Source: Mycetocola reblochoni REB411 (lineage in GTDB: Bacteria; Actinomycetota; Actinomycetes; Actinomycetales; Microbacteriaceae). Taken from it: DNA of 64,000 nucleotides. Below, in pieces: positions 5,064-18,144 of this stretch. The stretch lies in NCBI RefSeq assembly GCF_900163835.1, contig NZ_FUKR01000032.1, forward strand, positions 1 through 64,000, given 5' to 3'. The first letter of the stretch is position 1. The number at the start of each line of letters is the position of its first letter. The position numbers and the translations under genes are program-made. The notes beneath the pieces were generated by a model. It was not told where the DNA came from, ran no database searches, and saw only the letters and a list, made by a program, of their open reading frames with translations.

Positions 5064-5786
5064 ATGCGTGGCAAAAGCGACCGGTCAGGGACCAGAGCGC
5101 GGTATCTTCGTGCGATCTGGTCCCTGACCGAATCCGATCATGTGCCGGTCACGATCACCGGCCTCGCCCGCGCACTGCAACATGTTCCGGGAAGCGTTTC
5201 CGAACAGGTCAAACGTCTCGTCGGCGATGGCCTGATCGAACACGAACGGTACAAGAGTGTTTCGCTTACGCCGGAGGGGCGGTTAGAAGCGATACAGGTC
5301 GTGCGGGCCAATCGAATACTTCGTTGCTTCCTTCACGACATCCTCAACCTCCCTTGGAGCGAACTCGCCACAAACGCAGAAGCCCTGGAAGGCAGCAGTT
5401 CACCTAGGTTTCTCCAGCGGATCGAAGCCTCCCTCGACGAGCCCACCCACGACCCCTACGGGCAACCCATCCCTACACCAGGCGGCGACATCGAACCCCT
5501 CACCGACTCACCGCTGGGACAGCTGGTTCACTTGCACCGGACTCCGGTCGTGATCACGCGAGTCGCCGACGCGCCTGTGGAAATACTGACCTTCCTCGAC
5601 GAGCGGAACCTCCGCCCGGGCACTCGGATGCAGATCCGCGCAAGTGCAACGGGTTCGCACGTCGCTGACGTCCGCACGGCACAATGGCACGGAACGCTAC
5701 TCCCGGCCGGAATAGGGGCGCTTCGCGGGTCACTCCCCGAAGAAACGGAGCAACTGCTGGCTCAACCGTCTGCGATGGACACGTAG
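5064..5786 (+). CDS. DtxR-family regulator with degenerate metal sites
   Basis: A 240-residue protein with a DtxR-type winged helix (residues 10-75), dimerisation domain and C-terminal SH3/FeoA-like domain. The positions that bind the activating metal in DtxR/IdeR/MntR are changed: the His of RRHRL is Asn83 (RANRI), the following Glu is Arg87, and the His of LEHxxSD is Gly110. The canonical paralogue encoded just downstream on the other strand keeps all of these. The protein may therefore be a metal-independent repressor or a modulator of the canonical one. It is the last gene of the PEPCK/transporter operon, and its 3' end overlaps the 3' end of the paralogue by 25 bases. Confidence 0.8.
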   Translation: MRGKSDRSGTRARYLRAIWSLTESDHVPVTITGLARALQHVPGSVSEQVKRLVGDGLIEHERYKSVSLTPEGRLEAIQVVRANRILRCFLHDILNLPWSELATNAEALEGSSSPRFLQRIEASLDEPTHDPYGQPIPTPGGDIEPLTDSPLGQLVHLHRTPVVITRVADAPVEILTFLDERNLRPGTRMQIRASATGSHVADVRTAQWHGTLLPAGIGALRGSLPEETEQLLAQPSAMDT

Positions 5787-6442
5787 AGCGCATCCGTAGC
5801 CGAACGTCCCAACGCCACTGAGGACGCTGCCTCCGCCACCCGCACATCAAGCGAATCCGAAAAGGCCGCCCCTTCGCCGATATCGAGTGTCGCTCCGACC
5901 ACAAATCCTTGCTCCTGAAAGAACTGTAGGAGCGCGGGGTCCGAGTCCGAGATGCGTTCGACCAGAACACGGTGCCCCGCTCCTACCGTAGTCAGTTGCG
6001 TTGCATCTGGGATATGTACGGTGCCGTCTGCTGACGGGATGGGGTCGCCATGCGGGTCGCGGGTGGGGAACTCCAGAAACTCATCGATCCGGTCGATCAT
6101 GAAATCTGACACCGCATGCTCAAGGTGCTCTGCCTCATCGTGCACTTGATCCCAGGAGTAGCCCAGGACACTCACAAGGAACGCCTCGATGAGGCGATGC
6201 CGCCTGACCATCACCAACGCATACGAACGTCCGGTCTCCGTCAACTCCACCGCCCCGTAAGGCGCGTGGTCTACGAGCCCCTGCGACGCGAGCTTGCGGA
6301 CGGCATCAGAGACGGAGGAGAGCTTTAATCCCGTCCGCTCCGCGATCAGCGTCGGCGTCACCTGCGCGGACGACCACTCCGTGAGGCCCCATATGGCCTT
6401 CAGATAGTTCTGTGTGCTGGCGGAAAGCGCTGAGACGGACAT
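5762..6442 (-). CDS. mntR: Canonical DtxR/MntR-family metal-dependent repressor
   Basis: A 226-residue regulator with an N-terminal winged helix, metal-binding/dimerisation domain and C-terminal SH3-like domain. Metal ligands are intact: RRHRLIEAF (His82, Glu86) and EAEHLEHAVSD (Glu and His near 102-109). It should bind operators when Mn or Fe is replete and shut off metal uptake. The ATG at 6442 has no clear Shine-Dalgarno, and the dyad at 6456-6479 begins 13 bases upstream, suggesting autoregulation and a very short leader. It converges with the degenerate paralogue. The mntR symbol follows from the Mn-type transporter alongside; an IdeR-like role is not excluded. Confidence 0.8.
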   Translation of the reverse strand: MSVSALSASTQNYLKAIWGLTEWSSAQVTPTLIAERTGLKLSSVSDAVRKLASQGLVDHAPYGAVELTETGRSYALVMVRRHRLIEAFLVSVLGYSWDQVHDEAEHLEHAVSDFMIDRIDEFLEFPTRDPHGDPIPSADGTVHIPDATQLTTVGAGHRVLVERISDSDPALLQFFQEQGFVVGATLDIGEGAAFSDSLDVRVAEAASSVALGRSATDALYVSIADG

Positions 6443-6490: not shown

Positions 6491-7603
6491 CTATGTGCTT
6501 TCGTGCACCAAGCTCACGATTAGCGCCGTAATCGCAGCGCTCGCTTGCCTCGGCAACACGCCATTTCCAAGTGCGGCGAGCTGCTGATTTGCGGTAAGTC
6601 CATGCTGGGCATCAGTTACCCATCCCGATGGAAGACCCATGAGCCATTCCACAAACGCGGGTGCGGGACGGGGGCCGGTGTCGTCGCTCAAATGCGCAGG
6701 CGAGGGCGCAACACGGCCAGCGATCTGCTCCCATCGAGTCACGGCTTCGGCGTATCGTCCCCAGCGTCGAAGAGTTGCCCGATCAACGACCACAGGCTCT
6801 CGGGTTCCTCGGTACGGTACCCGCTCGGTCCGTGGAGGGCGAGGTCTATGATCTGATGACTCAGCGCGATCGTGCCCCGGCGTTCCTTCACCTGTTGCAG
6901 ACTCTCCCCGCCGCGTGAGGCGTCCGACGCGAGTGGTGTCCGGAAGAGTGCGGTGGGCGAGGATGAACACACGGTACCTGGGGTGGGGTGCCCCGATGTC
7001 GGAAGCGGGTAAACCGAGCCATCGCGCGTCAAACCTGAGGTCGGCCGGGTCTCCCAGAACTGCTCCTGCTGCCCGAAGAGGTCGAGTTGCGGCTTCTCCC
7101 AGATGCCACGGGTCGGGTTCCACACCGCGAGGGGTTGCACTGTCGGGGGTTGCATCTCTGAAGTTGCGTTGCTCATTATCGTCTCCTTCGAGGTTTGCGC
7201 GGATCGCGGGCGCGGAGAGCAACCCACGGACGTTCTCGATTACGACCCATTCGGGTTGCAGCGCGTCGATCGCTGCCGCCATGTGTCCCCAGAGGCCGGA
7301 GCGGGTGCCCGGTGCCAGGCCGGCCATCTTCCCGACAGTCGACACATCTTGGCAAGGGAACCCGCCGCAGAGGATGTCCACCGGTGGGACGGTGTCCCAG
7401 TCGATAGTGGTGATGTCGCCGAGGTTCGGCGCATCGGGCCAGTGGTGGGAGAAGACACGCGCGACGGGTTCGTTGATCTCGGAGAACCATATCGTGCGGG
7501 CGTTGAAGACTTCTTCGACGGCGAGATCGAGCCCGCCATAGCCGGAGAACAGTGACCCGACACGCAGTGGCGTGGCCGGGCTGACGAGGGGCAGGTCTGC
7601 CAC
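6491..7603 (-). CDS. DNA (cytosine-5) methyltransferase, Dcm-like
   Basis: A 370-residue C5-cytosine methyltransferase. In order it has motif I GSLFSGYGGLDLA (residues 16-28), motif IV GGFPCQDVS with the catalytic cysteine near residue 83, motif VI ENVRGLL, motif VIII GAPHPRYRVFILA and motif X LGNGVLP near the C-terminus. The GTG at 7603 is chosen because AGGAGG lies 7 bases upstream; an upstream in-frame ATG at 7684 lacks such support. It transfers a methyl group from SAM to cytosine; target unknown. No restriction endonuclease is next to it, so it is probably an orphan enzyme protecting the element, as often seen beside actinobacterial TraA relaxases. A second gene is nested in it (6739-7176). 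Confidence 0.9.
   Translation of the reverse strand: MADLPLVSPATPLRVGSLFSGYGGLDLAVEEVFNARTIWFSEINEPVARVFSHHWPDAPNLGDITTIDWDTVPPVDILCGGFPCQDVSTVGKMAGLAPGTRSGLWGHMAAAIDALQPEWVVIENVRGLLSAPAIRANLEGDDNEQRNFRDATPDSATPRGVEPDPWHLGEAATRPLRAAGAVLGDPADLRFDARWLGLPASDIGAPHPRYRVFILAHRTLPDTTRVGRLTRRGESATGEGTPGHDRAESSDHRPRPPRTERVPYRGTREPVVVDRATLRRWGRYAEAVTRWEQIAGRVAPSPAHLSDDTGPRPAPAFVEWLMGLPSGWVTDAQHGLTANQQLAALGNGVLPRQASAAITALIVSLVHEST
6739..7176 (-). CDS. Gene nested in another frame inside the methyltransferase gene (unknown function)
   Basis: A 145-residue reading frame lying wholly inside the methyltransferase gene, same strand, different frame. It begins at an ATG preceded by AAGGAG with 6 bases between, one of the strongest ribosome sites in this window. 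The product (MSNATSEMQPP..., with DLFG, SGLTRDGSVYPLPTSG and TPLASDASRGGES) does not look like random frame-shifted protein. It resembles Pro/Ser/Thr-rich small proteins I remember beside dcm genes in phages and actinobacterial elements. The same bases encode HPTPGTVCSSS here and PHPRYRVFIL (motif VIII) in the methyltransferase. No known domain or function can be named. Confidence 0.6.
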   Translation of the reverse strand: MSNATSEMQPPTVQPLAVWNPTRGIWEKPQLDLFGQQEQFWETRPTSGLTRDGSVYPLPTSGHPTPGTVCSSSPTALFRTPLASDASRGGESLQQVKERRGTIALSHQIIDLALHGPSGYRTEEPESLWSLIGQLFDAGDDTPKP

Positions 7604-7897
7604 GGGTGAGCCTCCTAGAACAGTGATCCCGGAGTCGTGCTGCTGCCCCGGGATGGTCACCAGCCAGGTGCACCGGCCGCACACGGCTCAGCGCCTATTC
7701 CGTCACTGAGCCTCACGTAGATATCCGCCACCGACGTTCGCCACTCAGTCCTTCGCCACTCAGTCCTTCGCGGTTCGCTCGCACGAGTTGTCACGCGTCT
7801 TGCAAGCGAGGAGCGCCACCGTCCGAAAGTGACCTCAGAAGTCACCACGACAGCGGTTGGTGCGGCTCACCTTCGGGGTGAAGAGAGGTGGCGGCTG
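7604..7897. other. Divergent non-coding region between dcm and traA; oriT candidate
   Basis: These 294 bases separate the divergent methyltransferase and relaxase starts. They hold an inverted repeat, GGCTCAG at 7685-7691 and CTGAGCC at 7706-7712 with a 14-base loop, and a tandem 15-base repeat at 7741-7770. MobF relaxases usually nick an oriT near their own gene, so a transfer origin here is plausible. No nic sequence can be recognised directly, and promoters of both genes must also lie here. Confidence 0.35.
7741..7770. repeat. Tandem 15-bp direct repeat (two copies)
   Basis: CCACTCAGTCCTTCG occurs twice head to tail (7741-7755 and 7756-7770), flanked by further copies of TTCGC/GTTCGC. It lies in the dcm/traA intergenic region and could be an iteron-like binding site for the relaxase or an accessory protein. 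Confidence 0.7.
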
Positions 7898-10800
7898 GTG
7901 ACGGTTTCGATGCGGGTGATGTCCGCCGGCGACGGCTACAAGTACCTCCTGCGCACCGTCGCATCCAGCGACGGCGACCGTGCACTCTCGACCCCGCTGA
8001 CGAGGTACTACACCGAGGAAGGCACCCCGCCCGGGCGGTGGATGGGATCAGCCGTAACCGTGCTCGGTAACGGTGCGCTCGCTGTGGGAGACGAAGTCAG
8101 CGAAGAGCAGCTTCAGCGTCTGATCGGGCAGGGCCTTGACCCGGTGACCAGTCAGGAGCTCGGCAGGCCGTATCGGAAGTACCCGACGGTGGCCGAGCGC
8201 ATTGAGCACCGCACTACACGTCTCGACGCTGATCGTCCTGTGACCGAGCGTGCTGAGGCGGTCGCCGTAATCGAGGCTGAGGAGAGCGCACGGGGCGCGC
8301 GGAAGGCGGTTGCGGGGTTCGATTTCACGTTCTCGATTCCGAAGTCCGCATCAGTGCTGTGGGCAGTGTCCGACGCGGGCACGCAATCGCTGATTGCGGA
8401 CGCGCACCATGCGGCGGTTGCAGAGATGGTTGCGTTCATCGAACGCGAGGTTGCCGCAACCCGCGTCGGTGCCGCAGGCCGCAACGGGGCTGTTGCGCAA
8501 GCCGATGTATCCGGGGTGATCGCGACCGCGTTCGATCACTACGACTCGCGGGCTGGTGACCCGCATCTGCATACGCATGTGGTGATCTCGAACAAGGTGC
8601 AGGCCGTGCACGACGGTAAATGGCGCTCTCTCGACGGCCGACCCCTGCACGCCGCTACCGTCGCGCTCTCCGAACTCCACGAAGCCGTGTTCGCTGACCA
8701 CCTCACGCGCGCGTTCGGTGTCGAGTGGGAAGCCCGCGTCATGGGGCGTGACCGCAACCCTGCGTGGGCGATCGCTACGGTGCCGGAGAGGTTGGTGGCG
8801 GAGTTCTCGTCCAGGTCACGGCAGATTGATCAGGAGAAGAACCGGCTCATCGCTGAGTACGTTGCCCGTCACGGCAGGCAACCGTCGCTTGCGACGGTCA
8901 TCAAGCTCCGCGCGCAGGCAACGTTGGCGACGAGGCCGGAGAAGCAGGTTCGTTCGCTCGCGGACCTCACCGGTGAGTGGCGGGAGCGTGGGTCGCACCT
9001 GCTCGGTGAAGACGCCACCCGCTGGGCCCGTACCGTCACCGCGAACGCTGCACCGTTGCTGTTGCGCGCTGATGATGTGCCGCTGGTTGTGATCGCCACG
9101 CTAGGCAGGATTGTGGTCGAGGCGGTCGGTGAGAAGCGCTCAACCTGGCGCCGATGGAACCTCACCGCCGAGGCTGCCCGCCAAACGATGCCCTACCGGT
9201 TCGCCACCACGAGGGATCGCGAAGCCGTCGTGGGAATGGTCGTCGATGCCGCCGAACACGCCTCCCTGCGACTGACTCCGCCCGAGCTCGCGTCCAGCCC
9301 GGCCGTGTTCCGCCGCTCTGATGACACGAGCAGGTTCCGGCCGATCGCGTCAACGGTGTACTCGTCACCGGCCATCCTCGCGGCAGAAGATCGGCTCCTC
9401 GAGCGCGCCCGCACCATGACCGCACCCACGGTGCCGGTCGAAGTGATCGAGAAGGTCAGCCGTCGCCCAGATCGCGACGGCAGGCTCCTCGCCGACGACC
9501 AAGCCGCAGCCCTCACCGCTGTTGCGATTTCAGGTCGTGTAGTCGATGTGTTGGTTGGCCCGGCGGGTGCCGGAAAGACGACAGCAATGCGCGCGTTGCG
9601 TACTGGGTGGGAGCGGGAACACGGGCGTGGCAGTGTCGGCGGCCTCGCCCCGTCAGCGGTCGCAGCGCAGGTCCTCGCAGACGATCTCGGCATACGAACG
9701 GAGAACACCGCGAAGTGGTGGCAAGACCACCACGACATTGGCGCATCGTTCCGCAGGGGACAGCTCGTGATCGTGGACGAAGCCTCCCTCGCCGGCACCC
9801 TTTCGTTGGATCGCATCACGGCGCACGCCGCAGAGGTCGGGGCCAAGGTGCTGCTCGTGGGTGACTGGGCGCAACTGCAATCCGTCACCGCCGGCGGCGC
9901 GTTCTCACTCCTCGTGCACGACCGCGACGATGCCCCGGAACTGGTCGATGTCCACCGATTCGTCAATGCATGGGAGAAGACCGCCTCCCTTGATCTCCGC
10001 CACGGCCGTACCGAGTCCATCGACACCTACGCCGAACATGACCGCGTCAGCGGCGGCAACACCGAGGCGATGATCGATGCCGCCTACACCGCCTGGCGCA
10101 CGGACACCCTCTCCGGCGCCTCGACGGTGCTGATCGCGGACTCCAACGAATCCGTCCACGCGCTGAACCAGCGCGCCCGGGCTGACCTCATCCTCGATGG
10201 CACCGTGGATGCCCGCCGCGAAGTCGCTCTCCAAAGCGACGCCCGTGCCGGTGTGGGTGACACGATCATCACCCGCAAGAACGACCGCCGCCTCCGCACC
10301 CCGCGAGGATGGGTGCGCAACGGCGACCGTTGGATAGTCACCGACATCCGAGACGACGGATCACTCACCGCACGCCGCGCGAACAGCCGCGGCACCGTGA
10401 TCCTCCCGGCCGGCTACGTCTCGGATCACGTCGATTTGGGGTACGCAGTGACGACGCATAGGGCGCAAGGAATCACGACCGACACCTCGCATGTTCTTGT
10501 TGATCCGTCCACGACGAGGGAGAACCTGTATGTCGCGATGACCCGCGGCCGGCACGCGAATCTCGCCTACGTCGCCACCGACCGACCCGACGACAGTCAC
10601 ACCTCACCGCATCCTGCCGATGATCCGGATTCGACTGCACGGAGCGTGCTCTACGGGGTGCTGCAGCACGTCGGTGCCGAGCTGTCCGCGCACGAGACGA
10701 TCACCACCGAGCAAGAAACCTGGGGGTCGGTGGCGCAGCTCGCGGCCGAGTACGAGACGATCGCGCAAGCAGCCCAACACGACCGCTTCGCCACCCTCAT

Positions 10801-11446
10801 CCGCGAAGCAGGGCTCACCCCGGACGAAGCAGAAGACACGATCCACTCCGACGCCTTCGGCGCACTCACCACCGAACTCCGCAGAGCCGAAGCGAACCAC
10901 CACAACATCGACACCCTCATGCCGCGCCTGGTCGCAGCGCGCAGCTTCGTCGACGCCGACGACATTGCCTCCGTGCTCCATCACCGTCTCGCCCGCGCAA
11001 CCGCCAAACCCGCCGGTTCCGGGCGCACCCGCAAGGTACCCCGCCTGATCGCCGGCCTCATCCCCGAAGCCGCAGGACCCATGAGTGGCGAGATGCGAAA
11101 AGCCCTCACAGAGCGACGCGAGCTGATCGAGCAACGTGCCGTGGCCGTCCTCGACCATGCTCTCACCGAGCGTCACGAATGGGCGCTCGCACTCGGAGAC
11201 ATGCCACCTGATACGCGAGCCGCGGCAGCGTGGAGACAGCAGGCGAGAACCGTGGCCGCGTACCGAGACCGCTACGGCATCAACACGCGCGCTCCGCTCG
11301 GCCCGGCACCCGACAGTGACGCGCAGAAGATCGACCTTGCGAGAGCGAAAGCGGCTCTCGCAAGGCTCAGCGATCTCGCTGCCACCGAACGACACGACGA
11401 CCCGGCGCGGACCGTGCGGCGTGAGGGCGCGAGGCGAGGCCTGTGA
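7898..11446 (+). CDS. MobF-family conjugative relaxase/helicase (TraA-like)
   Basis: About 1,182 residues from the GTG at 7898, chosen because AGAGGTG lies 7 bases upstream and the product then begins VTVSMRVMSAGDGYKYLL, as in related proteins; ATG 7910 is an alternative. The N-terminal TrwC-type relaxase domain carries candidate tyrosines in GDGYKYL and LTRYY and the metal-binding triad HLHTHVVIS. The middle to C-terminal part is a RecD-like helicase: Walker A GPAGAGKTT, Walker B VIVDEAS, and later TTHRAQGIT and VAMTRGRH. The enzyme nicks and unwinds DNA for conjugative transfer. No coupling protein or type IV secretion genes are visible here, so transfer either uses genes to the left or is only mobilisation. 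Confidence 0.92.
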   Translation: MTVSMRVMSAGDGYKYLLRTVASSDGDRALSTPLTRYYTEEGTPPGRWMGSAVTVLGNGALAVGDEVSEEQLQRLIGQGLDPVTSQELGRPYRKYPTVAERIEHRTTRLDADRPVTERAEAVAVIEAEESARGARKAVAGFDFTFSIPKSASVLWAVSDAGTQSLIADAHHAAVAEMVAFIEREVAATRVGAAGRNGAVAQADVSGVIATAFDHYDSRAGDPHLHTHVVISNKVQAVHDGKWRSLDGRPLHAATVALSELHEAVFADHLTRAFGVEWEARVMGRDRNPAWAIATVPERLVAEFSSRSRQIDQEKNRLIAEYVARHGRQPSLATVIKLRAQATLATRPEKQVRSLADLTGEWRERGSHLLGEDATRWARTVTANAAPLLLRADDVPLVVIATLGRIVVEAVGEKRSTWRRWNLTAEAARQTMPYRFATTRDREAVVGMVVDAAEHASLRLTPPELASSPAVFRRSDDTSRFRPIASTVYSSPAILAAEDRLLERARTMTAPTVPVEVIEKVSRRPDRDGRLLADDQAAALTAVAISGRVVDVLVGPAGAGKTTAMRALRTGWEREHGRGSVGGLAPSAVAAQVLADDLGIRTENTAKWWQDHHDIGASFRRGQLVIVDEASLAGTLSLDRITAHAAEVGAKVLLVGDWAQLQSVTAGGAFSLLVHDRDDAPELVDVHRFVNAWEKTASLDLRHGRTESIDTYAEHDRVSGGNTEAMIDAAYTAWRTDTLSGASTVLIADSNESVHALNQRARADLILDGTVDARREVALQSDARAGVGDTIITRKNDRRLRTPRGWVRNGDRWIVTDIRDDGSLTARRANSRGTVILPAGYVSDHVDLGYAVTTHRAQGITTDTSHVLVDPSTTRENLYVAMTRGRHANLAYVATDRPDDSHTSPHPADDPDSTARSVLYGVLQHVGAELSAHETITTEQETWGSVAQLAAEYETIAQAAQHDRFATLIREAGLTPDEAEDTIHSDAFGALTTELRRAEANHHNIDTLMPRLVAARSFVDADDIASVLHHRLARATAKPAGSGRTRKVPRLIAGLIPEAAGPMSGEMRKALTERRELIEQRAVAVLDHALTERHEWALALGDMPPDTRAAAAWRQQARTVAAYRDRYGINTRAPLGPAPDSDAQKIDLARAKAALARLSDLAATERHDDPARTVRREGARRGL

Positions 11447-13874: not shown

Positions 13875-16061
13875 TTACGGGGCGACAAGCTTCAGGGGGC
13901 TGGTTTCCGCAGGGACATCCCATTGCTCAACACCAGGACCGTTGCGGTCCCACTTCGTGAAGCGGACGTAGGTGGTTCGGAAATCTTCGCTTACCGGGCG
14001 AAGTTTCCTCGCCAACAACGAGGCGAACGCGTGATCGTGGGTTGTAACGATCAGTTGGCGATGAGGGAGTATCTTGCGAAGCAGATCAACGAGGCCGAGA
14101 AGGTGCACGTCGTCCAGGTTCTGAAGCGGGTCATCGAGTATCAATGACTTCACGTGAGTAGGCGCGAAGCCGAGGTTGAACGAGAGGAACAAGGAGACGG
14201 CAAGCGCGTTTGCTTGCGATGTAGATAGCGTCTCCCCGGGCTCCGTGACATCGACCTGAACCTCGTCGTCACGCAGCATGGGCGTGAGTCGGTGCTTCCC
14301 ACCGAACTGGCGTGTGGCAATCTCAACGGATCGGAACGTTGGATGGGGGTCGATTGCTGCGTAGAACTGACGCAGGAGAGGCTTCAACTGCTTCAAACGG
14401 TCGGCAACAAACGTCTCCGCGTCTGACTTCACTGCATCAAGAAGTGCGGTAGCGACGTCATTTGTGCGCCGCCGATCGGCAATGTCTTGCTCCTTGGAAG
14501 CCAAAGAGCTGCGAAGTGCCTTGGACTCGATTTCGATTCGATCACGTCGTGTCTTCGACGAGTCCAGTGAAGCTGCTGCATCGAACTCGCGCCCTGCCTC
14601 CAATGTCCGCGCAATCTGAGACTTCCGCCTCGCTACACGATCTAGTTCAGATGCGAGTCGTTGGATTTCGCTGCCCGCCTCTGCTGACGCGTCAGGCAGA
14701 TCATCAGAGAAGCTGGCCAGAATCTCCTTTACTCTGCTTTCCCGATGCTCCTTCGCCGCTTGTGCTGATGCGCGTTGTTCGAGCATGGCGCGGTGCTGAT
14801 CTGAGACAGTCTTGAGTTGCAGGGACAGTTCACCCAGACGCTTCTCTGCGGCTTGGAGCTTTGTTCTTTGTAGTTCAGCGCCTTCTCTGAGAGCGGCGTT
14901 CTCTGTTTCGTTGGCGATGGATTCGAGGCGACGACGATACGCTTCCGGATCGACTTCTTGACCACAGGCTGCGCAGCTATCTGCCACGTGACGGAGCAGG
15001 ATCGACGCCATACTTGCGAGCTCTTCACGAATAGAGGATGCCTGTCTACGCACGGCATCTGCTTCTCCAACTGCGACGCGAAGTAGCTGGATGTCGTGCT
15101 CGACCTGTTCCTTCTGATCCGTCAGATCAGCAACTTGACGTTCGAGTTCGATGACTTCAGCATCGTCCGGACTTTCGGGAAGCGGCACGTTCAGTTCCGC
15201 CTGTGCCGCAAGCAAGGCGGCTTCGTCCTGCTCGATTGTGCTGCGCTCCTGGTTGAGGGCAGCACGCAGTTTTGTCAGCGCACTCTCGCTCAGCTCCCAT
15301 TCTTTCGCTTCTGTAGTCGCGACGAGGCCGAGCGCCTCAACGTCGTTGCTCCATGTCTGCCATCGGCCGATCACCTCGGCCGTATTTGCTTTGGTGATCT
15401 CGGTTTCAAGCACGGACAACGAAGCTGCGAGGTCTTCGAGCTTTGCGCGATCACCCTCGAGCGCTGAGTCAGCCTGGTTGACCGCGCGAACCCACGCTCG
15501 CTTGTGCGACTGGAGTTCATCCGCGAACTCTCGTAGACGCCCGGCACCCACCATGCTTGCGACCGCATCGAAACGCTCAGTGTCCTGGCGTCCGGTCAGG
15601 AACTCCCGTAGCGACTCCTGCTTCAAGTAGATCGAGTCCACGAACGACTGTGCCAATGTGGCGAAGTCTTCGTTGGTATCCGTGCCCGCGAGATTCTGGC
15701 GGAGCCAGACCTCCGCATCCGCACCACGAAGTGACGCTTCGTTAACGCGCACTCGAAGTGGAGCGCGAAGTTTCTTGGCGTCGGTCTCGCCCGGGTTCTC
15801 CAACGACCTCGTGATGACAACATCGTCACCGTCGAAGTCGGTTCGCAACTCAACCGTCGTAGTTCCCGACTTGCTGTAAAGGTTTCGGGGTCCCTGCGTG
15901 CTGGTGGTCTTGCCCGAGATCGCCCATGAAATCGCGTTGCAGATTGTCGTCTTGCCATACCCATTCGCGCCAACGACGATCACCACGTCTGCGTCAAGGT
16001 CGATGTCAACCTCGCCCGAGACTCCGCCAAACCCCGCGATGGAAACTCCAGTGACTCTCAT
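13875..16061 (-). CDS. Rad50/SMC-like ATPase with zinc hook (LmuB-like)
   Basis: 728 residues: N-terminal half of the ATPase with Walker A GANGYGKTT near residue 35, long coiled coil, a CxxC zinc hook (CAACGQE, near residue 363, close to the middle), second coiled coil, then a signature-like LSTSQANALA, Walker B SLILDDPLQNLDD and the H-loop TTHDHAF. This is the SbcC/Rad50/RecN plan, but shorter than Rad50, as in Lamassu LmuB and other three-component ABC systems. It probably senses DNA ends or foreign DNA and activates the SIR2 partner. The ATG overlaps the middle gene's stop by 4 bases (ATGA). Confidence 0.82.
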   Translation of the reverse strand: MRVTGVSIAGFGGVSGEVDIDLDADVVIVVGANGYGKTTICNAISWAISGKTTSTQGPRNLYSKSGTTTVELRTDFDGDDVVITRSLENPGETDAKKLRAPLRVRVNEASLRGADAEVWLRQNLAGTDTNEDFATLAQSFVDSIYLKQESLREFLTGRQDTERFDAVASMVGAGRLREFADELQSHKRAWVRAVNQADSALEGDRAKLEDLAASLSVLETEITKANTAEVIGRWQTWSNDVEALGLVATTEAKEWELSESALTKLRAALNQERSTIEQDEAALLAAQAELNVPLPESPDDAEVIELERQVADLTDQKEQVEHDIQLLRVAVGEADAVRRQASSIREELASMASILLRHVADSCAACGQEVDPEAYRRRLESIANETENAALREGAELQRTKLQAAEKRLGELSLQLKTVSDQHRAMLEQRASAQAAKEHRESRVKEILASFSDDLPDASAEAGSEIQRLASELDRVARRKSQIARTLEAGREFDAAASLDSSKTRRDRIEIESKALRSSLASKEQDIADRRRTNDVATALLDAVKSDAETFVADRLKQLKPLLRQFYAAIDPHPTFRSVEIATRQFGGKHRLTPMLRDDEVQVDVTEPGETLSTSQANALAVSLFLSFNLGFAPTHVKSLILDDPLQNLDDVHLLGLVDLLRKILPHRQLIVTTHDHAFASLLARKLRPVSEDFRTTYVRFTKWDRNGPGVEQWDVPAETSPLKLVAP

Positions 16062-16696
16062 AGTGCGTCCATCCCTGTCCGCTGGGTTGCGATCAATCGT
16101 TCGTGGAGCGCTTCAAGAGGAGACTCGCCTGCCTCATACGCAGCGATGACCACGTCGAGGTGCGCATTGCTGTCAAGAGCCCCCGCAACGCGCGATGGGA
16201 GCGTGGCCAAGGGGTCAGCCCTCCCCGGAGTGGTGTCGAGATCAAGGTCGAGAATCGGCGCCAGTGTTCGCCTAACCTGTGGTGTCAACTCCAGCGGATC
16301 GAAGACACGACTTGGTAGATCGTCCGCTGTCAGCACCAACTTGCGTACACGCCGCGTGTCAGAACGTATGGTGCTCAGCTCGGCAGCCAGTTCCTCCGGA
16401 ACGCCGTCCATCGCGACGAGGATGAGGTATCCATCCCAAGACTTCGGGTCGGTCGCGATTACGTTCGCACCTAGGAAATCGACCACGTGATCCTGTGCCG
16501 TACCCCACCCGGCGACGAGCTCTTCAACCGACTCAAATGCCCACACCGCGATCACTGAGTACTCGTCTTCGAACGCCATCGAGCTGGAAGGCCAGGATCG
16601 GTGGCGCGCGCTGTCTACGCGGACGATCTCAGACTCTGCAAGCAGCCTTGTGATCTCGGTGAGAAGCAGTTCGTTCGTTACAACGGCGTCGGTCAT
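16058..16696 (-). CDS. Middle component of a SIR2/SMC defence system (LmuC / ABC-3C middle-component-like)
   Basis: 212 residues, start ATG 16696 with GAGGAG upstream. No catalytic motif is visible. The N-terminal region has alternating hydrophobic strands (YSVIAVWAF, WDGYLILVAM), followed by RRVRKLVL and a helical C-terminus. It overlaps both neighbours by 4 bases (ATGA on each side), so the three proteins are made together. Position between the effector and the SMC ATPase, size and the W..YL..L pattern fit the small middle components of ABC-3C systems and LmuC; this is by architecture, not by a confirmed domain match. Confidence 0.6.
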   Translation of the reverse strand: MTDAVVTNELLLTEITRLLAESEIVRVDSARHRSWPSSSMAFEDEYSVIAVWAFESVEELVAGWGTAQDHVVDFLGANVIATDPKSWDGYLILVAMDGVPEELAAELSTIRSDTRRVRKLVLTADDLPSRVFDPLELTPQVRRTLAPILDLDLDTTPGRADPLATLPSRVAGALDSNAHLDVVIAAYEAGESPLEALHERLIATQRTGMDAL

Positions 16697-18144
16697 CGTC
16701 GTAGCTCCTCAACCGCTGACTGCAAGTCAGTCGCGGGCCGTCCTAGGTAATCGTCTGCGAAGATCGGGTGAATGCTGTCGGCGCCCCTAATGAGGTCGCC
16801 TGATGTGTCCTCCCGAACAAGGTCATCAACACTTGGCGTTCGCGTGTTTCTTGCTCCAGCCACGATGACAAGATTGGTTCGTTGCTGGGGCGCCAGGCGA
16901 TTGTTTCGCTCACGAATCTTGGCGCTGATGGCGCTCCATGCAATGGTGCCTCCACCATGAGCAAGCCCAAAGACGAGCGTTGAACCGCCACCGGTGTTGA
17001 CCGTGAGACGGCCATGCTCATCCAGGTCCAGGGAACTCGTTGCGAGCGCTGCCGACAAGTGGTCCGTTGCTACCAGGAGGTGCGCGATCTGCCTTTGGTT
17101 CGCGGCGTCACCCTCTCCGGCATAGAAGTGCGGGCCCAGTAGCCAGGTAGCTCTGGCGCGGCCGAGGTCGAGCAGCGTGATCTCTTGGATAGGTGTTGCG
17201 ACATCTTCCGACCGGCGCAACGCCATTTCGGGGTCATCGTCCGCCATCTGGCTATGTGCGTCACGGACTCTTTGCAACTGTTCGAGAACTACCCTTTGAG
17301 CGAGTCTCGACATGAAGTCGCCCCAGTAGAGGTCGACAGTTCCGGTGAGATTCGCGCTCAATGCTTCGTGGAACTTCGAGTCTTGATTGCGGTCGACCAG
17401 ATAGTAGGAGGATTGGGCTTTTGCGGCGAGGTTGCTGACGCTCTCAGTGAGAACATTGGCGGGACTGCCCAGGCCGACGAATACCACGACTGGAGCTGAC
17501 AGATTTGCAGTTGCAATCACGCTCTCCCACTCTGCAGCCCAGTCTGTATCGAGCGCGCTCTTTCTGAGTACCCAGGTCTCCTCGGGCTGATTGACGCTTC
17601 GGTGTAGGTGCACCACGGAATGTGAAGCAAGGTTCGCGTGCTCGTCAGGACCTTCTACGAATGTGATGTTCGTGCTGTTGCCCAGGGCGGTTACGGCGTG
17701 TTGGAAGGCCAAGTCGTAGTTCAGAGTGATCACATGCCGAATCGCGCCTTCGATGAGCAAGGCGGCAGCTATGAGGTGCCCCGAGTTCGGGGCGGCCGTC
17801 CGCCAAGCGTCCTTCGGTAGGCGACTCGTCAGTTCAGTCTGCGATCCGTACTTGTCGTACAGCAGATCAGCTAGAACGGAGAGGTCGTCGGGATCTGTGC
17901 ACTCTCCGTCGTTCAGAACGCCATCGGCAACAAGTCGCCGGTATGCTTCGCGAGAGTAGTGCGCACCACTCGCAAAGCCGGTCGGCTTCTCCATCGAGAC
18001 GCCTGCACCAACAACGAGTACCACGCGGCTGCCTGCTGCGTCCGTGATGCGTTGAAGGATTTCCGCTGGGAAAGCTGCCGGGTCTGTCGACTGGCTCGGG
18101 TCAACTTCTGGCAACACGTCCTCCTCATCGGTGAGAGCTTTCAC
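16693..18144 (-). CDS. SIR2-like protein, probable NAD-consuming effector (LmuA-Sir2-like)
   Basis: 483 residues from GTG 18144; an alternative TTG start at 18114 has AGGAGG 5 bases upstream and may be the real one. The SIR2 domain shows VVGAGVS (residues 45-50), TLNYD (140-144, with the conserved Asn and Asp), VVHLH (177-181) with the catalytic-type His, and a later FVGLGSP. The C-terminal half (from about 290) has no domain I recognise. SIR2 domains in defence systems hydrolyse NAD+ to stop phage growth. The operon with a middle component and SMC ATPase points to a Lamassu-Sir2-type role. Deacetylase function is unlikely because no zinc-binding cysteines are seen. Confidence 0.75.
   Translation of the reverse strand: MKALTDEEDVLPEVDPSQSTDPAAFPAEILQRITDAAGSRVVLVVGAGVSMEKPTGFASGAHYSREAYRRLVADGVLNDGECTDPDDLSVLADLLYDKYGSQTELTSRLPKDAWRTAAPNSGHLIAAALLIEGAIRHVITLNYDLAFQHAVTALGNSTNITFVEGPDEHANLASHSVVHLHRSVNQPEETWVLRKSALDTDWAAEWESVIATANLSAPVVVFVGLGSPANVLTESVSNLAAKAQSSYYLVDRNQDSKFHEALSANLTGTVDLYWGDFMSRLAQRVVLEQLQRVRDAHSQMADDDPEMALRRSEDVATPIQEITLLDLGRARATWLLGPHFYAGEGDAANQRQIAHLLVATDHLSAALATSSLDLDEHGRLTVNTGGGSTLVFGLAHGGGTIAWSAISAKIRERNNRLAPQQRTNLVIVAGARNTRTPSVDDLVREDTSGDLIRGADSIHPIFADDYLGRPATDLQSAVEELRR

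Follow-up and report, generated by a model that had tools for sequence, protein, structure and literature searches.

A reading frame nested in a cytosine-5 DNA methyltransferase gene of actinobacterial mobile elements and phages, and its possible part in a two-polypeptide enzyme

Genes at the methyltransferase locus

We analysed a window of 64,000 nucleotides from Mycetocola reblochoni REB411 (contig NZ_FUKR01000032.1), by which we mean the whole stretch of DNA under study, and all unlabelled positions refer to it; the features discussed are collected in Table 1. The gene dcm encodes a C5 methyltransferase, as indicated by a Pfam match that is best across motifs I–VI, and its profile matches the HhaI and HaeIII methylases. 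A single frame holds motifs I to X, a IX-like motif included, and the PCQ, ENV, motif VIII R-x-R and GNGV residues are invariant or nearly so (alignment A5). The GTG at 7603 is likely to be the start rather than an alternative GTG at 7684, which would give a protein of 397 aa, because a Shine-Dalgarno sequence precedes the former.

A second ORF of 145 codons, running from the ATG at 7176–7174 to a stop at 6739, is enclosed entirely by dcm on the same strand. The first-pass annotation had described it as a well-initiated gene with AAGGAG 6 bases ahead of its ATG, had named several peptide motifs in its product and had placed methyltransferase motif VIII in the overlap. The start and its Shine-Dalgarno sequence were confirmed, all of the named motifs are present in the translation, and RYRVFILA of dcm (6979–6956) does lie within the overlap. 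The shared region extends from just past motif VI, across motif VIII, up to the region preceding motif IX. The N-terminal module of the nested product overprints the motif VI–VIII region of dcm. The full stretch of the second, recognition-type module in the nested frame is LFRTPLASDASRGGESLQQVKERRGTIALSHQIIDLAL (LFRTPLASD...LSHQIIDLAL), which resembles the 'LLPTPxASD' modules of phage relatives.

Just beyond dcm lie two convergent genes for DtxR-type metal-dependent repressors (5064–5786 on the plus strand and 5762–6442 on the minus strand), the 3' ends of which overlap. Farther away, on the minus strand at 13878–18144, an AAA ATPase match (PF13476, 13878–16061) and a weak SIR2_2 match below Pfam's cut-off (16696–18144) were found, and these genes possibly form an anti-phage defence cluster.

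Table 1. Features of the dcm locus and its surroundings in the window
Feature	Position	Strand	Description	Basis
dcm, cytosine-5 DNA methyltransferase	6491..7603	minus	370 aa from GTG 7603	PF00145, E 6.4e-31
dcm Shine-Dalgarno sequence AGGAGG	7611..7616	minus	7 nt before GTG 7603	read by eye
Nested gene	6739..7176	minus	145 aa, +1 relative to dcm	sequence, conservation, position rates
Nested-gene Shine-Dalgarno sequence AAGGAG	7183..7188	minus	6 nt before ATG (plus-strand CTCCTT)	kept in relatives
Nested N-terminal module	6997..7122	minus	WNPTRGIWE...DLFG...TSGLTRDG...PLP	alignments A1 and A3, position rates; coordinates by hand
Nested recognition-type module	6835..6948	minus	LFRTPLASDASRGGES...GTIALSHQIIDLAL	position rates, profile match to phage modules; coordinates by hand
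dcm motif VIII	6956..6979	minus	RYRVFILA, within overlap	coordinates by hand
dcm motif IX-like and motif X	6557..6661	minus	PAPAFVEWLMGLPSGWVTD and NQQLAALGNGV, downstream of nested stop	coordinates by hand
TrwC/TraA-type relaxase-helicase	7829..11446	plus	divergent from dcm	PF08751, E 4.8e-90

Conservation of the nested frame and of its start

With the nested protein as query, matches were found in 9 of 99 genomes, the window's own among them. When dcm alone was the query, which involves no selection for the nested frame, 28 of 398 Microbacteriaceae genomes matched. Of the 30 loci from this dcm-only search (L018–L047, of which L037 and L047 are one place), all except L045 contained a nested homologue (29) and 20 were classed as nested; one of these 20, L025, carries a stop that cuts the nested frame at codon 70. 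Further relatives came from a scan of genome contigs (80 of 184 kept) and from viral scans (80 of 97 kept, plus 3 from a second scan).

Among the 210 fetched loci, a redundant set in which the same places are repeated, 169 were classed as nested, 8 as lying in three frames and 13 (some near-identical) as split, the nested frame of the latter also carrying motifs IX and X. The others were nested with a stop in dcm (6), fused (2) or nested only (1), or lacked a C-terminal match (7), an N-terminal match (2) or a nested match (1); a single locus without any match (L014) belongs to no class. The class 'nested' means that dcm is open between its matched parts, stops in the nested frame being permitted, and the +1 frame is shared by all 169 of its members. 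The same +1 frame was found in phages, in a Streptomyces plasmid and in Methylorubrum. Stops in the nested frame of homologues, which the first-pass annotation had proposed as a test, occurred in only 5 of 102 window-like loci (redundant set), where dcm is intact and the nested frame is stopped; L025 is one such case. Overall, the nested gene looks to be kept by many actinobacterial mobile elements and phages.

On a Microbacterium plasmid (L001, 3001–3468), dcm is broken by a frameshift and a TAG and the nested ORF is intact. The annotated gene there is the nested ORF (hypothetical protein WP_187326295.1), and the locus is counted as nested because the break precedes the matched part of dcm. 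A megaplasmid of the alphaproteobacterium Methylorubrum extorquens AM1 (L211, 2501–2770) has the same +1 overlap; a C-terminal (motif IX–X) match was not found within the 5.3 kb fetched. Locus L011, considered as a fused form with the nested stretch in the dcm frame, was rejected and taken as decaying, because it has a changed motif IV (GDFPCQ) and the dcm frame lacks motif VIII.

Among window-like loci with complete flanks of 4 kb, a set that was not dereplicated, 51 of 54 have a relaxase gene upstream of dcm on the opposite strand (flanks were taken as complete in loci of at least 8300 bases, which 54 of the 115 window-like loci are). The dcm/nested pair therefore appears to be a regular part of a mobile-element family in Microbacteriaceae and other Actinomycetes. 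The presence of the relaxase beside the pair in nearly all loci also suggests a widespread conjugative element family of Actinomycetes. It is our guess that the pair shields transferring DNA from host restriction.

We compared start signals in 55 dereplicated window-like loci. At the best-scoring start of each locus, a choice that biases the outcome toward good starts and Shine-Dalgarno sequences, at least 5 of 6 Shine-Dalgarno bases were present in 55/55 loci and 6/6 in 47, and the start codon was ATG in 52/55. In a fixed stretch before the match, AAGGAG was found in 40 of the 55 loci, always as the dcm codons xAA GGA Gxx. GGA accounts for 15% of Gly codons outside the overlap, yet it was used in all 40 cases; the dcm residues at this site were EGD in 29 of the 40 and different in 11. 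In the distant group, starts were GTG in 32 of 34 sequences, most of them just past motif VI, where the purine-rich bases of the ENVRG codons can act as a Shine-Dalgarno sequence. Conservation of the nested start and Shine-Dalgarno sequence had been posed as a question by the first-pass annotation, and the homologues keep both, together with the frame and the protein sequence.

We infer from these signals that internal initiation at its own Shine-Dalgarno sequence and ATG would yield a second polypeptide. Alternatively, a programmed ribosomal frameshift might link the opening half of dcm with the nested frame; in the window, this frame is free of stops over at least the 17 codons before the ATG (ORF 6739–7227), so that a shift would be possible. 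Such a mechanism would not need a conserved start codon and Shine-Dalgarno sequence, yet both are conserved, and the dcm frame remains open to motifs IX and X; we therefore regard frameshifting in place of internal initiation as highly improbable.

Substitution patterns in the two frames

Where the two genes overlap, the third position of a dcm codon is the second of a nested codon, and the first position of a dcm codon is the third of a nested one. Position rates were obtained from nested-class loci with an N-terminal match starting near motif I and with no N or stop (125 loci), which were dereplicated by shared 12-mers to 89 (55 window-like and 34 distant) and gave 27 and 16 disjoint pairs, respectively. 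For the 27 window-like pairs, dcm positions 1, 2 and 3 differed by 0.114, 0.094 and 0.320 per codon outside the nested ORF, compared with 0.169, 0.066 and 0.116 inside. Position 3 was lower inside in 27/27 pairs and position 1 was higher inside in 23/27. Position 1 exceeded position 3 in 24/27 pairs inside and in 0/27 outside, and the ratio of position 1 to position 3 differences was 682:469 inside versus 600:1679 outside (chi-square test, P = 1e-78). The synonymous-site test proposed by the first-pass annotation thus found methyltransferase third positions constrained in the nested region, and the inverted codon-position pattern within the nested ORF agrees with its claim that two proteins constrain the same bases.

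In the distant, mostly phage group (34 sequences, 16 pairs), positions 1, 2 and 3 differed by 0.239, 0.205 and 0.468 outside and by 0.356, 0.251 and 0.361 inside. The drop at position 3 was weaker here, position 3 being lower inside in 12 of 16 pairs (sign test, P = 0.077). Position 1 was above position 3 inside in 6 of 16 pairs, and the position 1:position 3 shift gave P = 5.8e-23 (chi-square test).

The constraint varied along the overlap. Around motif VIII (reference codons 166–210) it was visible in both frames. At codons 211–240, pairs that were 80–97% identical differed by 0.02–0.03 at position 3 and by 0.33–0.42 at position 1; upstream of the overlap, position 3 of the same pairs differed by 0.19–0.35. 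The dcm frame was little conserved throughout codons 211–255, between motifs VIII and IX, with position 1 above position 3. Judged by these rates, the nested frame is the constrained one at codons 211–240, and the dcm frame there appears to be little more than an open linker. In C5 methyltransferases, it is the part between motifs VIII and IX, the seat of the target-recognition domain (TRD), that reads the target sequence.

A different explanation of the conserved frame is that it echoes high GC content and the conservation of dcm, which together could make the +1 frame look conserved. GC-rich DNA yields long chance ORFs, and 13.9% of synonymously shuffled window-like overlap regions stayed open in the nested frame (only this expected open fraction is used, since the regions were defined by open frames and the observed stops are zero by construction). 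However, an echo does not fit the suppressed third-position and raised first-position differences that disjoint pairs show within the ORF, the retention of the Shine-Dalgarno sequence through a less used Gly codon, or the recurrence of this +1 frame among phages, on a Streptomyces plasmid and in Methylorubrum, and its probability is, in our estimate, close to nil. The position rates indicate instead that protein-level selection acts on both frames over the same bases, and double coding of the overlap appears near certain. Of the interpretation in the first-pass annotation, the overprinting is thereby strongly supported; the regulatory or protective role that it gave to the nested product gained no support.

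Modules in either frame and a candidate two-polypeptide methyltransferase

The nested protein showed no match in Pfam (E up to 1), NCBIfam (E up to 0.1) or PADLOC (E up to 0.01), and a PDB profile search returned nothing meaningful, with an antibody chain as the single hit (E = 0.38). It matched part of the PHROG profile phrog_1008, 'DNA methyltransferase' (positions 62–150 of 329, E = 2.2e-9), which bears out the likeness to small proteins beside phage methylase genes to which the first-pass annotation had pointed. The dcm C-terminus matched a separate stretch of the same profile (positions 229–324, E = 8.4e-31); compared with this profile, the window's nested ORF ends before motifs IX–X, which sit in the dcm frame. 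AlphaFold modelling of the nested protein alone (54 sequences) gave a pLDDT of 51.5, and a fold search from this model was dropped as the model was too poor.

Phage genomes contain related arrangements. In phage Jamun, a second methylase gene (gp40) occupies the nested frame and runs on through motifs IX–X, and GigiOuiOui has an annotated pair of overlapping DNA methylases, gp65 and gp66; the annotations of both nested phage loci that we viewed, L002 and L004, omit the nested ORF. Ahead of motif IX, phage relatives carry tandem modules that start with LLPTPxASD and are mostly about 30–45 aa long, and a locus may have them in either of the two frames or in both at once. With a loose pattern we drew 482 module-like stretches from the redundant loci, of which 371 are read in the nested frame and 111 in that of dcm. 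Both frames were represented in 9 of 31 multi-member module clusters, a count to be taken as a guide (clusters were joined by single linkage, the largest has members of mixed kind, and at least four hold no modules but pieces of motif IX, the N-terminal module, a C-terminal tail or a linker), and the same module text could be read directly in both frames. Two loci, L111 (3001–4491) and L106 (3007–4272), encode chains of 497 and 422 aa in the nested frame, with LLPTP modules in long tandem arrays that look like multispecific recognition arrays.

We compared the modules by hhalign, using 93 window-type, 15 dcm-frame and 13 nested-frame modules (56, 11 and 10 distinct ones). The window's module matched nested-frame phage modules with a probability of 97.2 and dcm-frame phage modules with a probability of 93.7; matches were favoured by the way the modules had been picked, namely for a motif similar to the one in the window's module. 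For the dcm-frame comparison, 20 column-shuffled controls scored no higher than 1.5. Between the dcm-frame and nested-frame phage modules themselves, the match was weaker (probability 70.9). The model of L107, which has its module in cis, is an HhaI-like methylase (VIA-align Z 20.1, 239 residues, 3.1 Å; ranges only are reported, so that the module and the HhaI TRD were not compared residue by residue), and the module itself was modelled at a pLDDT of about 50–62. The TRD role of the module is accordingly argued from its position and its occurrence in both frames, because the models of the module and of the nested protein are of low confidence.

The adjoining relaxase would suit a nested protein with a job independent of the methyltransferase, such as antirestriction or a part in the transfer of the element, but similar modules are parts of methylase chains in phages and PADLOC gave no match at E 0.01, and we consider a separate function very unlikely. 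As to the regulatory or protective protein of the first-pass annotation, the evidence points instead to part of the methyltransferase, most likely target-recognition material.

We propose, at somewhat better than even confidence and on comparative sequence grounds, that the methyltransferase is made of two polypeptides and that the one for recognition is overprinted on the catalytic gene. The dcm frame would make the catalytic chain (motifs I–X), with the stretch between motifs VIII and IX serving as a little-conserved linker, and the +1 frame would make a second polypeptide in which the conserved N-terminal module is joined by a single recognition-type module of the 'LPTP/ASD' kind. Assembly of the two chains would follow, the nested chain supplying target recognition in trans; one transcript would yield both subunits, and the DNA that they share would keep them linked on mobile elements. 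It is simplest to suppose that the catalytic chain receives a recognition module from the nested chain, since similar modules occur in either frame of relatives, and a target-recognition role for this chain seems moderately probable. A point against two chains is that the dcm frame has every catalytic motif and might therefore work alone, and the division of labour is not simple, as some relatives have modules in both chains at once.

The nested protein might also be a true partner of the methyltransferase that acts as a chaperone, stability factor or regulator rather than in recognition. In favour of this, its N-terminal module shows a conservation separate from that of the recognition-type module, and the nested ORF persists in phages with dcm-frame modules. 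In those phages, however, the nested ORF usually bears module-like stretches as well, similar modules are present in both chains, and the dcm frame is little conserved exactly where the nested module is most conserved; we judge a partner outside recognition to be unlikely, though worth keeping in mind.

Several known systems resemble the proposed enzyme in part, and the split enzymes M.EcoHK31I and M.AquI come nearest to it. The gene for the small subunit of M.EcoHK31I begins in another frame within the large-subunit gene. In the excerpts of PMC3404938 and PMC3439449, this enzyme (YGGCCR) is one C5 methyltransferase formed by two polypeptides, of which the small chain has motif IX and the large chain has motifs I–VIII, X and a predicted TRD (PMC3404938). 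Compared by description, the likeness lies in one C5 methyltransferase from two chains, as proposed here; the window differs in that its large chain has all of the catalytic motifs and its small chain the recognition-type module. For M.AquI (CYCGRG), the excerpt of PMC3404938 describes a variable region divided across two chains. Our split relatives, with motifs IX–X in the second chain, resemble it by description, whereas in the window it is the first chain that has motifs IX and X, and the second gene is fully nested. As in such split-type enzymes, a second conserved coding frame is present at the locus, but division of the catalytic motifs between chains was seen only in the 13 split relatives; because these motifs are undivided in the window, we did not place its locus as a member of the M.EcoHK31I or M.AquI type.

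The multispecific phage C5 methyltransferases of the SPR and phi3T type are single chains in which several recognition segments, each about 40 aa long, follow one another between motifs VIII and IX. The phage modules here are likewise tandem short segments between these motifs, going by this general description, but they are spread over two overlapping frames. We think the chances evenly balanced that these loci represent an actinobacterial and phage class of methyltransferase in which the specificity subunit is overprinted, modules are traded between frames and specificity evolves by such moves.

Among the matches listed in the open-licence literature, outside which most subscription papers lie, we found no account of nested or overlapping methyltransferase genes, and the nested pair was undescribed in the listed matches on actinophage methylases and on these elements. 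The excerpt of PMC9927249 on overlapping genes of E. coli concerns antisense overlaps, with an ORF within another gene; here, in contrast, the overlap is on the same strand, is kept over many genera and phages, and has split relatives. According to the same excerpt, only a few long overlapping genes have been fully established in prokaryotes (PMC9927249). Both overlapped products in the present case appear to be parts of one enzyme, so that ordinary methylation assays can test it. The loci offer a natural series (nested, split, and with modules in either frame) for studying the origin of overlapping genes. If the two-chain reading is true, it would locate the target-recognition part of a widespread group of enzymes, and if modules are indeed traded between frames, one stretch of DNA would write both subunits of the enzyme.
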